This document shows positions 17,329 through 23,020 of a DNA stretch of 35,416 nucleotides, one piece after another. This stretch comes from Gammaproteobacteria bacterium (GTDB taxonomy: Bacteria > Pseudomonadota > Gammaproteobacteria > AKS1): the NCBI GenBank assembly GCA_027006175.1, contig JALTKS010000110.1, forward strand, positions 1-35,416, written 5' to 3'. A program made the translations under genes and the position numbers. Each line of letters begins with the position of its first letter. Position 1 is the stretch's first letter. Under the pieces are notes generated by a model, which was not told the DNA's origin, ran no database searches, and saw only the letters and a list, made by a program, of their open reading frames with translations.

Positions 17329-18522
17329 TCAGTTCCGTTTTACCCAGCGCATTGGGTTGGTCGGCTTACCATTGTGGCGTATTTCAAAGTAAAGCGCTGG
17401 TTTTTTTCTACCGCCACTGCGCCCAACCGAGGCTATTTCTTCTCCGGCCTCAATCCAATCTCCGGTTTCTACATAAAGACTATCATTATGACCATAAAGA
17501 CTCATGTATCCCTGCCCATGATCAACAATAACCATTAAACCAAAACCACGTAACCAATCTGCAAAAGCAACGCGACCATGTGAAATGCTACGCACACTCG
17601 CCCCTTGCCTGGCACGAATAACCACCCCTTGCCAACGCAGACCGGTACTACCTCGGCGACTCCCATAACGCGAACTAATACGCCCTCTAACCGGTAAACG
17701 AAAACGTCCTTTTTGACTACGGAAGGATTTCCGTACACCCGCATTTGCTGGGACATCTGCAAGCGCACGTCTTAAGCCTTGCATTAAATCTTCTAATTGT
17801 TTTGCATCTGTTTTTACTTGCGCTAATTTTTGTTTTCGGGTGCGAATTTTTTTATTAAGCGCCTCTAATACGCTTGCACGTTTTTTTCGATTTGATTCCA
17901 GTGCCTGTTTTTGCTTTAAACGTTTTTGGCGTGTTGAATTTAATTTTACTGTTTGTAAATTTATCTTTTCTTCAACCGACTTTAATTCTGTAACTTTTAA
18001 TGCAATTTCACTAATGCGTTCTGTTCTGGCTCGATTCAAATAATCATAAAGCACCAGCGTTCGGCCCATCAAGGCTGGATCCTGTTGATTCAGTAATAGC
18101 TTTAAATATTCTTGTCTGCCTATCGCATAAGAGGTACGTATTTGTCCTGCTAATGCATTGCGCTGCTGATTAAGTGCAAAGTTTAAATTTTTCTTTTGTT
18201 TATTTAATTCAGATAATTGTTTTTTTTGCTTACTTAATTTTCGATTTATTGTTTTTAATTGACGGTTTACTTTGCCAATTTTCTTTTCTGATTTTTTTAA
18301 TTTTTTACGTAAGCGACTATGTTTATCTTTTTGTTTATCAAGTTTGGTTTGAAGTTTTTCAATTCGTAAACGTAACTCATTCAGTTTTTGTTGTTGTAAA
18401 GTAACATCAGCATTAACATGAGAAGGAATGGCTGTTGTTAAAGCAAATAGAAAGAAAAAAATAATGACACTTGTAAATCGATACACAACTCTGGAGTTCA
18501 GGTTATGAATTAATTTCTTCAC
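17329..18522 (-). CDS. envC: EnvC murein hydrolase activator (degenerate LytM)
   Basis: EnvC recruits and activates periplasmic amidases (AmiA/AmiB in E. coli) at the septum under FtsEX control. The 397-residue protein has an N-terminal signal/anchor (about 15-38), a long lysine-rich coiled coil (about 40-255), and a C-terminal LytM/M23 domain (about 270-395). The zinc ligands are lost: the family HxxxD position reads WQGVV and the HxH motif reads LYFE. This is expected for an activator without its own peptidase activity. The start is GTG, overlapping the gpmI stop in GTGA, so the two are coupled. Confidence 0.93.
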
Positions 18523-20081
18523 GCGTTATCTTGTTCCACATCTATTTCAATAAGCTGTTTACCGTTCATTTCATACGGTGGCTGTAGGCCCATTAGATAA
18601 AGCATAGTGGGAGCGATATCTGATAAGGTTCCGCCATCAACAATAAATTTAGCCGCGCGTTTACTATAGTAAATTAAAGGGACTGGATTCATGGTATGTG
18701 CAGTATGTGGCTGACCGGTTTCCGGGTTCACCATCATTTCAGCATTACCATGATCGGCCGTCATAAGCATTTCACTGCCCGTTTTATCCAGGGCAACACA
18801 AATTCGTGCGATACAGGCATCGAGTGCTTCAATCGCCTTAATCGTTGGCTCTAATTTACCCGTGTGCCCAACCATGTCCGGGTTTGCATAATTACAAATA
18901 ATCGCATCATACTTACCACTTTCAATAGCTTCGACTAATTTATCTGTTAATTCAGGTGCGCACATTTCAGGTTGTAAATCATATGTCGCAACATTCGGTG
19001 AATTAATTAAAATACGATCTTCACCTTCAAAAGGTTCTTCTTCACCACCATTAAAAAAGAACGTAACGTGTGCATATTTTTCTGTTTCTGCAATCCGTAA
19101 CTGGTGCATACCTAAACTGGATAAATAAGCACCAAATACATTATTCAGTCGTTCCGGTGGGAAGGCGACAGGTACGTCAAAATCATCTTTGTATTCAGTC
19201 AAACTGACAAAGCTGGCTAATTTTGGAAATACCTCACGCTCAAAGCCATCAAAATCCTGTTCAATAAACGGTCGTGTAATTTGGCGAGCACGATCTGAAC
19301 GGAAATTCATAAAGATAAGCACATCACCGTCTTCTATTTTGACGAGGGGTTGTCCTTGCTCAACAATGGCTGTCGCTTTTACAAATTCATCTGTTTCATC
19401 ACGCGCATAAGCCTGTTCCAAGGCAGATAACGCAGTAGTTGCAGTAAAGTCTGCCTTACCTTGTGTCATTACATCGTACGCAGCCTGAATGCGGGGCCAG
19501 CGATGATCACGATCCATCGCATAATAACGACCAATTATTGATGCAAACCGACCTTCACCCAATTCTGCGAAAACACCTTCCATTGCCCGAATTGATGCTT
19601 CAGCACTCTTGGGTGCCGTATCACGTCCATCAAGGAAAGCATGCAAATAGACCTTACTCATGCCGCGTTCTACCGCTAATTTTACAATCGCTTGAATGTG
19701 TTCTTCGTGACTATGAACGCCACCATCTGAGAGCAAACCAAGAACATGAATCGCTTTATCCGCGTCTTTAGCTAAATCGACTGCATCCGTTAGGGTCTGA
19801 TTATTAAAAAAGGAACCGGTCTTAATTGCGCGAGAAACACGGGTAAATTCCTGATAAACCACCCGACCGGCACCTAAATTAAGATGTCCAACCTCGGAAT
19901 TGCCCATTTGCTCTGCGGGTAAGCCCACATCTGCGCCTGAGCCACGGATTAAGGTATGTGGTCGCGTTTTCCACAAATTATTCCAAACGGGCTTATTTGC
20001 AGCATTCACCGCATTCGCTTCTGAATTTTCACTGTACCCCCATCCATCAAGGATAAGGAGCAACATTGTCTTAGGAATCAA
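18519..20081 (-). CDS. gpmI: Cofactor-independent phosphoglycerate mutase
   Basis: GpmI interconverts 3- and 2-phosphoglycerate using two manganese ions and a phosphoserine intermediate. The 520-residue protein has metal ligand D12 in LDGWGYSE and phosphoserine S62 in [39 protein letters not shown] and [13 protein letters not shown] are typical. The chosen start is TTG at 20081, giving [16 protein letters not shown]; an ATG five codons later (20066) is possible but less well placed. It heads the minus-strand run of envC, ctpA, yibQ and yajL and diverges from the ArsR gene. Confidence 0.95.
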
Positions 20082-20241: not shown

Positions 20242-20268
20242 TTTCCAAGCAGTACATTATTGTATAAT
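20242..20268 (+). promoter_or_regulatory. Possible sigma-70 promoter of the ArsR-type gene
   Basis: A perfect -10 hexamer TATAAT lies at 20263-20268. The best upstream -35 candidate is weak (TTTCCA at 20242-20247, 15-nt spacing). A transcript would start near 20275, just before the ATATG repeats. Confidence 0.35.
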
Positions 20269-20279
20269 CTTTTTATTAT

Positions 20280-20300
20280 ATATGAACATATGAAAATATG
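20280..20300 (+). promoter_or_regulatory. Candidate operator: three ATATG repeats with 8-bp period
   Basis: ATATG occurs at 20280, 20288 and 20296, exactly 8 bp apart, between a TATAAT box and the ArsR start codon. The middle copy is part of palindrome CATATG. The position over the expected transcription start fits autorepression by the downstream regulator. It was recognised by eye only. Confidence 0.4.
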
Positions 20301-20344: not shown

Positions 20345-20668
20345 ATGAATATGGTCGCACTTGATAATATTCTCATTTCACGGGACGAAGATATCGACCG
20401 CGCTTCACGTTCACTCAAAGCAATGTCTCATCCGCTTCGATTGAAAATTCTCTGTACGTTGGGTGATCAGGAAATTAGTGTTCAGGATATTGTTGAACAT
20501 GTCGGTACATCGCAGAGTAATATCTCTCAACACCTTGCTATTTTACGTGATAAAGGCATTTTAGCATCGAGAAAAGATGCTAACCGTGTTTATTACCGTG
20601 TTGGTGATGAGCGTACCTTACGTTTGATTGGTATGATGCGCGAAGTATTTTGCCATACATCCCTATAA
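20345..20668 (+). CDS. ArsR/SmtB-family regulator, BigR/SqrR/YgaV-like (persulfide-sensing type)
   Basis: This 107-residue winged-helix repressor has the ArsR core KAMSHPLRLKILCTLGDQEISVQDI followed by recognition helix SQSNISQHLAIL. The metal-binding ELCVC motif of classic ArsR proteins is absent, reading EISVQ. Two cysteines remain, C37 in the ILCTL helix and C103 in VFCHTSL at the C-terminus. These correspond to the cysteine pair of BigR, SqrR and YgaV, which form a disulfide or polysulfide bridge and release DNA when persulfides appear. A rhodanese gene follows on the same strand. The gene is inserted between the gpmI and yibN blocks, which are adjacent in E. coli. The persulfide role is inference from these residues and the neighbours. 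Confidence 0.85.
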   Translation: MNMVALDNILISRDEDIDRASRSLKAMSHPLRLKILCTLGDQEISVQDIVEHVGTSQSNISQHLAILRDKGILASRKDANRVYYRVGDERTLRLIGMMREVFCHTSL

Positions 20669-20771
20669 GTATTAATTCAGCTAATTATTGTTCGACTGTA
20701 CTGCCAGGTTCCCTGTGTAGTCATACTGACATTTAATTTTTAACCAACTTTACCCAAATAGACACTTTAAA

Positions 20772-21197
20772 ATGGACCAACTTCTAACATTTATCTCTAA
20801 TCACTGGGATTTATTTACTGCTCTTATCATTATTATTGCCTTATTGTTTGGCAGTACTTTCCTTGATGCCTTACGTGGCATAAAGCAAATTGGTCCCGCT
20901 GAAACAACTCGTCTTATTAATCATGAAAAAGCCATTGTGGTTGATGTACGCGAAGACAAAGAATTCGCAACTGGCCATATTATCAACTCGCTACATATTC
21001 CAATGAGCAAGGTTCAAGAACGTTTAACGGAACTTGAAAAACATAAATCATCCCCGATTATTGTTAGCTGTCGAAGCGGAGCTCGCTCAAATAGTATTTG
21101 TGGCCTGCTTCGTAAGAATGGTTTTGAAAATGTATCAAACCTTAAAGGCGGTTTAATTGCATGGCAGAATGCCAATATGCCTGTTAGCAAAAACTAG
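20772..21197 (+). CDS. yibN: Membrane-anchored rhodanese YibN
   Basis: This 141-residue protein has one N-terminal transmembrane helix (about 12-33) and a cytoplasmic rhodanese domain with catalytic cysteine C100 in VSCRSGARS. Rhodanese domains move sulfane sulfur as a cysteine persulfide. The order yibN-grxC-secB-gpsA is the E. coli order. Being next to a persulfide-type regulator, it may act on sulfane sulfur here. E. coli YibN has also been reported near the translocon, so a membrane biogenesis role is possible. The 103-nt gap after the ArsR gene may hold a separate promoter. Confidence 0.9.
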   Translation: MDQLLTFISNHWDLFTALIIIIALLFGSTFLDALRGIKQIGPAETTRLINHEKAIVVDVREDKEFATGHIINSLHIPMSKVQERLTELEKHKSSPIIVSCRSGARSNSICGLLRKNGFENVSNLKGGLIAWQNANMPVSKN

Positions 21198-21236: not shown

Positions 21237-21497
21237 ATGCCTGAAGTGATTTTATACGGAACTTCTTCCTGCCCCTACTGCATACGTGCACGAATGATGC
21301 TTGATAAAAAAGGCGTCAACTATGAATACATTGGTTTGGATCAAACACCTGAACGACGTGCTGAAATGGAATCCAGATCAAACGGTCGCACCAGCGTTCC
21401 ACAAATTTTTATTGATGACCGTCATATCGGTGGTTTTGATGATATGGCTGAACTGGATATCGATGATGAACTCGATCCATTACTCGGTATTAACTAA
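21237..21497 (+). CDS. grxC: Glutaredoxin 3 (dithiol)
   Basis: GrxC reduces disulfides and glutathionylated proteins using glutathione. The 86-residue protein has the dithiol active site CPYC (C12, C15), the TSVPQIF cis-proline region and the GGFDDMAEL glutathione-binding end. Length and neighbours match E. coli grxC. It lies 39 nt after yibN and 31 nt before secB. Confidence 0.96.
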   Translation: MPEVILYGTSSCPYCIRARMMLDKKGVNYEYIGLDQTPERRAEMESRSNGRTSVPQIFIDDRHIGGFDDMAELDIDDELDPLLGIN

Positions 21498-21528: not shown

Positions 21529-22005
21529 ATGACTGAAACCAACGAAGCTGCATCTAACAATGAACAAGCCTTTGCGATTCAAAAAATATTTGTTAAAGAT
21601 ATTTCTTTTGAGTCACCTAACTCACCCAATATTTTTCTAGAAAAAGATTGGCAGCCTGATGTAAACCTTAATCTGCAAAGTACTTCTCGTGCGCTGGATG
21701 AAGATGTTTATGAAGTTGTTTTGAGCATTACCGTAACGGCCAAACTTAATGAAGAAACTACCGCCTACCTTGCAGAAGTGCAATACGCCGGTATTTTTAA
21801 TATTAAAAATTTCCCGGATGATGACAAAACCTATATGTTAGGGAGTTATTGCCCGAACTTATTGTTCCCCTATATTCGCGAAGCAATCTCCGATGTTGTT
21901 GCAAAAGGTGGTTTCCCGCAATTATTGCTGGCACCTGTTAACTTTGATGCCTTATTGCAACAGAAACTAGAACAACAAAAAGCAGAAGGCGCGACAGTTC
22001 AATAA
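21529..22005 (+). CDS. secB: SecB protein-export chaperone
   Basis: SecB is a tetrameric cytoplasmic chaperone that keeps preproteins unfolded and hands them to SecA. The ATG at 21529 gives 158 residues, close to the usual length; a TTG at 21514 would add five residues without support. Conserved segments are FAIQKIFVKDISFESPN, LAEVQYAGIFNI, LGSYCPNLLFPYIREAISD and GGFPQLLLAPVNFDALL. The gene lies between grxC and gpsA as in E. coli. Confidence 0.96.
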   Translation: MTETNEAASNNEQAFAIQKIFVKDISFESPNSPNIFLEKDWQPDVNLNLQSTSRALDEDVYEVVLSITVTAKLNEETTAYLAEVQYAGIFNIKNFPDDDKTYMLGSYCPNLLFPYIREAISDVVAKGGFPQLLLAPVNFDALLQQKLEQQKAEGATVQ

Positions 22006-22021: not shown

Positions 22022-23020
22022 ATGAAGGCAGGTAGTATTTGTGTTCTGGGAGCAGGATCGTGGGGAACAGCCCTTGCGATCTTGCTTGCCCAACAAAACA
22101 AATCCTGTTTACTCTGGGCGCATAATGCCGAGCACCTGCAACATTTGCAAAATGAACGCAGCAATCAACGTTATTTACCCGATATCACCTTTCCCGATAG
22201 TCTGACGATAGAACCTGAACTAAAATACTGTATTGAAAATAGCGAAATAATTTTAATTGCTGTGCCTAGTCATGCGTTTCGCCAAACACTGCAAACCATT
22301 TCTGCCTATATTCAGCCCAATCAAAAAATTGCCTGGGCAAGTAAGGGGCTCGAGGCTGAGTCACATAAACTACTTAGCCACATTCTTGTTGAAGAGCTGA
22401 GCGATAATACCGCTTTTGCCGTGGTATCCGGTCCAACTTTTGCCAAAGAAGTGGCTAAGGGTCTTCCCACTGCAATAACTATTGCCTCTAACGATGATAA
22501 TTTTTCGCAGCAACTTGCCGATCGGCTTCATACCGATACGTTTCGTGCTTATACCTGTCGTGATGTGATTGGTGTACAAATTGGTGGCGCGGTTAAAAAT
22601 GTTCTCGCCATTGCTGCCGGTATTGCAGATGGATTAGGATTTGGTGCGAATACGCGTAGCGCGCTTATCACACGGGGGCTGGTAGAAATGTCTCGTCTTG
22701 GTCACCAACTAAACGCGGAGCCCACAACCTTTATGGGGCTTGCAGGTCTGGGTGATCTGGTTCTGACGTGTACGGATGACCAATCACGTAATCGCCGTTT
22801 TGGTAAAGCACTTGCAGCAGGGTTAAGTACCGAACAAGCTTTTGCTGAAATAGATCAGGTCGTAGAAGGCGCATTAACCGCCAAGGTCATTTATGAATTT
22901 GCCGCTAAACTCAATGTTGATATGCCCATCTGCGAACAGGTTTATCACATCATTTACGATGGCTTACCCGCCAAACAAGCCGTTACTGATTTGCTCCTGC
23001 GTACGCAAAAAGCAGAATAA
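22022..23020 (+). CDS. gpsA: Glycerol-3-phosphate dehydrogenase [NAD(P)+]
   Basis: GpsA reduces dihydroxyacetone phosphate to sn-glycerol-3-phosphate for phospholipid synthesis. The 332-residue protein has the Rossmann motif GAGSWG (10-15), VSGPTFAKEVAKGLPT, catalytic lysine K192 in GGAVKNVLAIAAGI, and GLAGLGDLVLTCTDDQSRNRRFG. A clear ribosome site (AAAAGGATAAT) precedes the ATG. It closes the yibN-grxC-secB-gpsA set and converges on trmL with a 3-nt gap. Confidence 0.97.
   Translation: MKAGSICVLGAGSWGTALAILLAQQNKSCLLWAHNAEHLQHLQNERSNQRYLPDITFPDSLTIEPELKYCIENSEIILIAVPSHAFRQTLQTISAYIQPNQKIAWASKGLEAESHKLLSHILVEELSDNTAFAVVSGPTFAKEVAKGLPTAITIASNDDNFSQQLADRLHTDTFRAYTCRDVIGVQIGGAVKNVLAIAAGIADGLGFGANTRSALITRGLVEMSRLGHQLNAEPTTFMGLAGLGDLVLTCTDDQSRNRRFGKALAAGLSTEQAFAEIDQVVEGALTAKVIYEFAAKLNVDMPICEQVYHIIYDGLPAKQAVTDLLLRTQKAE

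Follow-up and report, generated by a model that had tools for sequence, protein, structure and literature searches.

In the stretch of gammaproteobacterial DNA analysed here (35,416 nucleotides, hereafter called the window), a small protein of the ArsR family is probably a persulfide-sensing repressor that forms a sensor–enzyme pair with the membrane-anchored, YibN-type rhodanese encoded by the next gene. Judged by the comparisons below, arsR and the rhodanese gene look like a local, self-regulating sensor–enzyme unit resembling ygaVP of Escherichia coli; DNA binding, persulfide chemistry, repression, induction and the control of the rhodanese by ArsR are predicted from these comparisons. The literature searched contained no paper describing an ArsR gene next to yibN, and the supplements of PMC12423496 and PMC10509353 may list the pair. 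The following features of the window are referred to throughout.

18519–20081, minus strand: gpmI (divergent), cofactor-independent phosphoglycerate mutase, used as context marker (TIGR01307, 742.7 bits, cut-off 330.65)
20253–20287, plus strand: conserved upstream site, a probable operator (predicted), scoring 33.7 bits and holding the dyad and the −10-like hexamer
20256–20268, plus strand: dyad ATTATTGTATAAT, inside the conserved upstream site
20263–20268, plus strand: TATAAT, −10-like hexamer, inside the conserved upstream site
20345–20668, plus strand: arsR, predicted repressor of the ArsR/SmtB family, 107 aa, two cysteines (C37, C103); ATG-start open reading frame, profile matches and alignments
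20772–21197, plus strand: gene of the YibN-type rhodanese, 141 aa (PF00581, 73.3 bits; CRSGAR loop)
21237–21497, plus strand: grxC, glutaredoxin 3 (CPYC), possibly co-transcribed (TIGR02181, 105.3 bits, cut-off 90)
21529–22005, plus strand: secB, protein-export chaperone, possibly co-transcribed (NF004393, 217.5 bits, cut-off 180)
22022–23020, plus strand: gpsA, glycerol-3-phosphate dehydrogenase, possibly co-transcribed (from gene order and comparison with E. coli)

The gene block around arsR

The gene following arsR had been called a rhodanese in the initial annotation, and both its Pfam score and its canonical active-site loop confirm this. The protein carries C100 within the CRSGAR loop and a hydrophobic stretch at residues 14–32; by its sequence it is of the YibN type, with a predicted N-terminal membrane anchor. 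It is separated from arsR by 103 bases, and the gaps ahead of grxC, secB and gpsA measure 39, 31 and 16 bases, short enough that they would allow read-through from the rhodanese gene into these three. A possible tie of arsR itself to grxC–secB–gpsA is read from the gene order and these short gaps. Searches against Rfam returned no match within the window.

In E. coli K-12 the corresponding block reads gpsA–secB–grxC–yibN / gpmM–envC; the gap measures 244 bp and an ArsR gene is absent, in agreement with the initial annotation, which had described gpmM and yibN as neighbours lacking it. E. coli YibN resembles the window rhodanese in gene order and in the combination of an N-terminal anchor and a rhodanese domain, as described in PMC12282094. 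It differs in that D (locus L178) occupies the position of the canonical cysteine and no ArsR gene adjoins it.

Kinship with persulfide sensors

The window ArsR matched the Pfam model HTH_5 (PF01022) with 51.5 bits (cut-off 22) and passed the general NCBIfam ArsR model termed “metalloregulator” (88.9 bits, cut-off 55), and it failed the BigR equivalog NF040642 (79.6 bits, cut-off 155). Metal-sensing ArsR relatives carry the motif ELCVC. In the window protein ILCTL stands at this position with a single cysteine, C37, so that helix 3 has no CxC; C37 and C103, the latter within VFC, are the only cysteines of the protein, just as the initial annotation had it.

Searching with the single sequence, the best solved relatives were BigR (top, 65 bits), HlyU, YgaV, NolR and SqrR. 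A profile search gave 72.8 bits for HlyU, 72.7 for BigR, 68.6 for YgaV and 64.7 for SqrR, and at most 43 bits for the metal sensors SmtB, CadC and CzrA. In structural alignments, an AlphaFold2 model of the protein (pLDDT 80, pTM 0.71) was nearest to HlyU (Z 16.0, 92 residues, rmsd 1.5), followed by SqrR (Z 15.3, 95 residues, rmsd 1.9) and CzrA (Z 14.8, 93 residues, rmsd 2.4); with CzrA this close behind, the fold alone is not decisive. Model residues 12–106 aligned with SqrR 16–110 and residues 13–104 with HlyU 14–105, both without gaps, which places C37 and C103 on residues 41 and 107 of SqrR, presumably its sensing residues, and on residues 38 and 104 of HlyU. Cys38 and Cys104 are the cysteine pair described for HlyU (PMC4330345). 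In the sequence alignment, C37 lies opposite Cys31 of YgaV, a residue named in PMC9774250. The proposal that both cysteines occupy the sensing positions of BigR, SqrR and YgaV is thus borne out by gapless alignment of sequence and model alike. As far as sequence and model can tell, fold, cysteine positions and closeness place the protein in the SqrR/BigR/HlyU/YgaV group (“SSN cluster 4”), within which it forms a new group of orthologs of an already known sensor type, found in a gene context that is also new.

According to PMC12423496, rhodanese genes seem to be among the targets of two-cysteine ArsR regulators, and ygaVP of E. coli is like the arsR locus of the window in that a two-cysteine ArsR gene precedes a rhodanese gene and the cysteines align. 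YgaV, 38–40% identical to the window protein in the fold alignment, represses its own operon including the rhodanese gene ygaP; it binds over the polymerase site, and sulfide weakens this binding (PMC9774250). Unlike in ygaVP, the window rhodanese is of the YibN type, has an N-terminal anchor and lies inside the grxC–secB–gpsA block. The published SqrR-like box, ATTC-N8-GAAT (PMC9774250), also differs from the upstream site of the window. SqrR of Rhodobacter capsulatus shares the fold and the cysteine pair at 34–37% identity, but no sulfide:quinone reductase gene adjoins the window arsR. HlyU of Vibrio, the best profile and structural match with equal cysteine spacing, forms a tetrasulfide and leaves DNA; unlike the repressor proposed here, it has been characterised as activating a haemolysin gene (PMC10509353). 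BigR of Xylella, the best single-sequence match, likewise has equal cysteine spacing; its operon includes the gene for Blh, a sulfur transferase/dioxygenase (PMC5823870). As the window enzyme is a single-domain rhodanese of 141 aa and not a Blh-type fusion, and as the curated BigR cut-off was missed, the term “BigR-like” used in the initial annotation is apt as a description of resemblance and goes too far as an assignment.

Conservation and age of the arrangement

Among 369 genomes of the class, 183 had an ArsR match at E 1e-20 and 171 at E 1e-35, the level we used for orthologs. A family set was composed of one genome each from 80 of the 81 ArsR-positive families, leaving out family 134. Within this set every family keeps C37 (80/80) and all but one keep C103 (79/80), so the cysteine pair is conserved by more than chance. 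The sole exception (G107, locus L311) has V at position 103; its rhodanese loop is also altered (C, T), with the usual arginine gone, a single case. In the family set, median identity to the respective window protein was 82% for ArsR, a value somewhat raised because the set was picked for close ArsR matches; SecB reached 52% and the rhodanese 43%. ArsR identity exceeded that of SecB in 78/78 and that of the rhodanese in 79/79 comparisons; ArsR is the best conserved protein among those tested at the locus.

In 76 of the 80 carrying families a rhodanese gene lies directly downstream of arsR on the same strand, at a distance of 10–469 bp (median 107.5). In the four others (G029, G124, G281, G234) it is 6 kb away (two cases) or on another contig (two cases). 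According to the initial annotation, arsR had been inserted into the gpmI / yibN gene order. Since the order including arsR is common to 76/80 families and the absences are scattered on the tree, repeated loss, for instance in E. coli, is simpler, and an insertion in the window genome alone was rejected as the simplest reading. Fitch parsimony on a tree of SecB and rhodanese required ~19 changes in arsR presence, compared to a mean of ~50 after shuffling. We conclude that the arsR–rhodanese arrangement is old in the class and was probably lost repeatedly, a direction we infer from a tree without an outgroup.

The window genome encodes a second two-cysteine ArsR (L002, G000:C27:56635-56910), which is 54% identical and stands alone; TAATATTA repeats occur some distance upstream of its gene. 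Second arsR copies were present in 15 of the 80 family genomes.

Co-occurrence with genes of sulfur oxidation

The window genome possesses soxB and dsrA. Across the 369 genomes, with kinship ignored, an ArsR ortholog was found in 110 of 118 genomes with dsrA (odds ratio 43) and in 126 of 149 genomes with soxB (odds ratio 21), lists that include some strong partial matches below the curated cut-off (147 genomes pass for soxB and 111 for dsrA). For fliF, chosen as control gene, the corresponding figures were 115 of 194 and an odds ratio of 3.1. The association has exceptions on both sides: 25 sox or dsr genomes are without ArsR at the ortholog level, and, at the thresholds used, 33 ArsR-positive genomes lack both soxB and dsrA. 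Absences of ArsR within families (f3, f103, f117, f145) do not track sox.

Twelve class genomes (e.g., G112, G228, G326, G182) had a weaker ArsR match (E ~1e-27 to 1e-33), several soxB or dsrA carriers being among them; these matches are either diverged orthologs or a second copy. The twelve were counted as ArsR-negative in the association with soxB and dsrA and placed in neither class in the rhodanese test described below. Many sulfur oxidisers appear among the named loci, which come from the best 80 matches and are hence a biased set, for example Chromatiales, Thiohalobacter, Thiogranum, Thiohalocapsa, Sedimenticola and tubeworm symbionts. Conservation at this locus, a point raised in the initial annotation, is found in 76/80 carrying families, and carriers of the gene are mostly concentrated among Gammaproteobacteria that oxidise sulfur.

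Linked loss of the sensor and the rhodanese active site

At the canonical cysteine position of the YibN-position rhodanese, C was present in all 122 ArsR-positive loci and in 57 of 73 ArsR-negative loci. Counted by family, at least one C was found in 75/76 ArsR-positive and 31/43 ArsR-negative families. The full C-x4-R loop was intact in 70 of 76 ArsR-positive families vs 16 of 73 ArsR-negative loci. The positive side comprised 76 of the 80 family genomes, the four without an adjoining rhodanese (G029, G124, G281, G234) being left out. For the negative side, 73 of the 186 ArsR-less genomes were used, picked for having fliF; 72 of the picks gave a SecB locus and, together with E. coli, made up the 73 tested.

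To account for kinship, 18 disjoint pairs of ArsR-positive and ArsR-negative loci were compared on a tree calculated without the loop columns, from which G042 was absent as it has no SecB. The loop was present only in the ArsR-positive partner in nine pairs and never the reverse, with nine ties (sign test on the 9:0 independent pairs, p 0.004). The ratio was 18:0 on a tree of SecB alone and 7:0 on a masked rhodanese tree, and among 50 changed pair orders per tree the reverse direction never exceeded two. Also among genomes without sox or dsr the loop was intact in 11/14 ArsR-positive vs 11/61 ArsR-negative cases. The glutaredoxin of the same block served as a control and kept its CxxC in 23/23 ArsR-positive and 31/31 ArsR-negative cases, these being the matches obtained from 40 and 73 loci, respectively. 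Loop decay is structured by clade (17 Fitch changes vs a shuffle mean of ~48).

There are exceptions. Sixteen ArsR-negative loci have an intact C-x4-R loop. Conversely, a genome of ~1.1 Mb (G144, locus L313) keeps both sensor cysteines while its rhodanese cysteine is replaced by A, which leaves room for a different target of the regulator in this genome. Together, the comparisons show a linked loss of ArsR and the rhodanese active site, which suggests that sensor and enzyme work as a pair. We found no report of a joint decay of ArsR and the YibN active site in the literature searched.

A conserved site upstream of arsR

From 135 loci (L001–L135), the 126 with an ArsR of at least 65% identity were kept, containing 117 distinct arsR sequences; after removal of short, N-containing and identical upstream regions, 115 remained. 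A block close to TATTATTGTATAATGTTTTATTAATAAA scored above 8 bits in 101 of these 115 regions and in 0/115 shuffles, using a model refined on the very regions scored. In the family set the site reached at least 8 bits in 45/79 (shuffles 2/79), hence site and ArsR protein are not conserved together everywhere. The site lies over the arsR promoter, suggestive of self-repression (predicted). Because TATAAT overlaps it, promoter and operator are not separable in sequence; the persistence of TTATTATTGTAT in some Chromatiaceae without TATAAT favours a protein site. The best dyad in a palindrome analysis was weak (score −1.8) and centred on ATTATTGTATAAT. In the window genus the site extends, at 20279–20295 of the window, into an extra AT-rich repeat, ATATGAACATATGAA, not seen in other families; we take this repeat to resemble ArsR-family operators of the CzrA type.

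When 12 genomes were scanned with a 34-position model made from 37 sites, the best match was the arsR promoter in 11 of them and one genome had none. A convincing second promoter with the site was found in none of the 12, the other matches being weak and several of them inside genes. Three genomes of the genus contain ATTATTGTATAAT exactly, in each case solely in front of arsR, and copies of this 13-bp sequence with one mismatch were no commoner than those of the reversed control in four genus genomes. The single arsR-promoter match per genome and the dyad control favour a local circuit. Between arsR and the rhodanese gene, no second site above 1.5 bits was detected in 117 loci. The 103-bp gap ahead of the rhodanese gene could hold a promoter of its own. 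A promoter scan gave no more matches than shuffled sequence. A terminator-like match inside arsR was not taken as real.

Proposed mechanism and alternative readings

Modelled on E. coli ygaVP and on HlyU, we propose that the reduced ArsR dimer would sit on 20253–20287, over the −10 region of arsR, and hold down arsR and the genes behind it. A rise in glutathione persulfide or polysulfide would lead to a sulfur bridge between C37 and C103, upon which the bridged dimer would release DNA and rhodanese output would go up. With the rhodanese moving sulfane sulfur at the membrane, the signal would then fall.

The ligand cannot be read from a cysteine pair alone, and ArsR might instead be a general thiol-redox switch in which a C37–C103 disulfide forms under oxidative or other electrophile stress and the natural signal is something other than persulfide. 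Such a switch would fit the neighbouring thiol-redox gene grxC and the disulfide of BigR and polysulfide cross-link of YgaV described in PMC9774250. We nevertheless consider it unlikely: HlyU, with an equal pair, reacts with persulfides but not with peroxide or glutathione disulfide (PMC10509353), and the rhodanese adjacency in 76/80 families, the linked active-site loss and the enrichment with dsrA and soxB point to sulfur. That ArsR senses a metal or metalloid and kept its two cysteines by chance is highly improbable, as helix 3 has no CxC, the sequence scores of SmtB and CadC are far lower than those of the persulfide sensors, and the flanking genes are gpmI and rhodanese–grxC–secB–gpsA, with no adjoining metal transporter; the pass of the general “metalloregulator” model (88.9 vs 55 bits) and the closeness of CzrA in fold (Z 14.8) are what speak for it.

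To each of two further readings we give a slightly smaller chance than to the thiol-redox switch. ArsR could regulate sulfur oxidation more widely (sox, dsr and others), the rhodanese being just one of its targets, consistent with its very highly conserved recognition helix and its strong co-occurrence with dsrA and soxB. According to PMC10451225, SoxR is linked with complete Sox systems more often than with truncated ones, and the Sox systems of several gammaproteobacterial families are mostly truncated, which would suit this role. The genome scans argue against it, with the arsR promoter as best site match in 11/12 genomes, no convincing second site and one-mismatch dyads no commoner than the reversed control in the four genus genomes, as do the 33 carriers without soxB and dsrA. 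Alternatively, arsR could simply have long been part of a stable gene block without any regulatory link to the rhodanese. Such a neighbour effect would fit the synteny of the whole block and the clade structure of both ArsR absence and loop decay (19 and 17 Fitch changes vs shuffle means of ~50 and ~48); however, the tree-aware pairs all run one way (9:0, 18:0 and 7:0), and Grx in the same block lacks such decay. A persulfide-sensing repressor paired with the rhodanese thus remains our preferred reading.

Implications for sulfur oxidisers and for YibN

How sulfur oxidisers sense inorganic sulfur compounds is little known, as stated in PMC10451225. The ArsR described here offers a conserved candidate sulfur sensor: its gene occupies one place in 76/80 carrying families, the site upstream is conserved, and an enzyme is paired with it. 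A wider and rather doubtful extension is that ArsR serves sulfur oxidisers throughout the class as a sensor of sulfane sulfur that has been overlooked, and that it was paired early with YibN as a working persulfide-handling membrane enzyme; in lineages that lost the sensor, E. coli among them, YibN would have lost its sulfur chemistry and taken another role, e.g., as a partner of YidC. The link between the missing cysteine of E. coli YibN and the loss of ArsR may exist and is a proposal of the present analysis. The linked decay thereby provides a testable reason why E. coli YibN is without the usual cysteine, namely that the protein may be left over from a sensor–enzyme pair.
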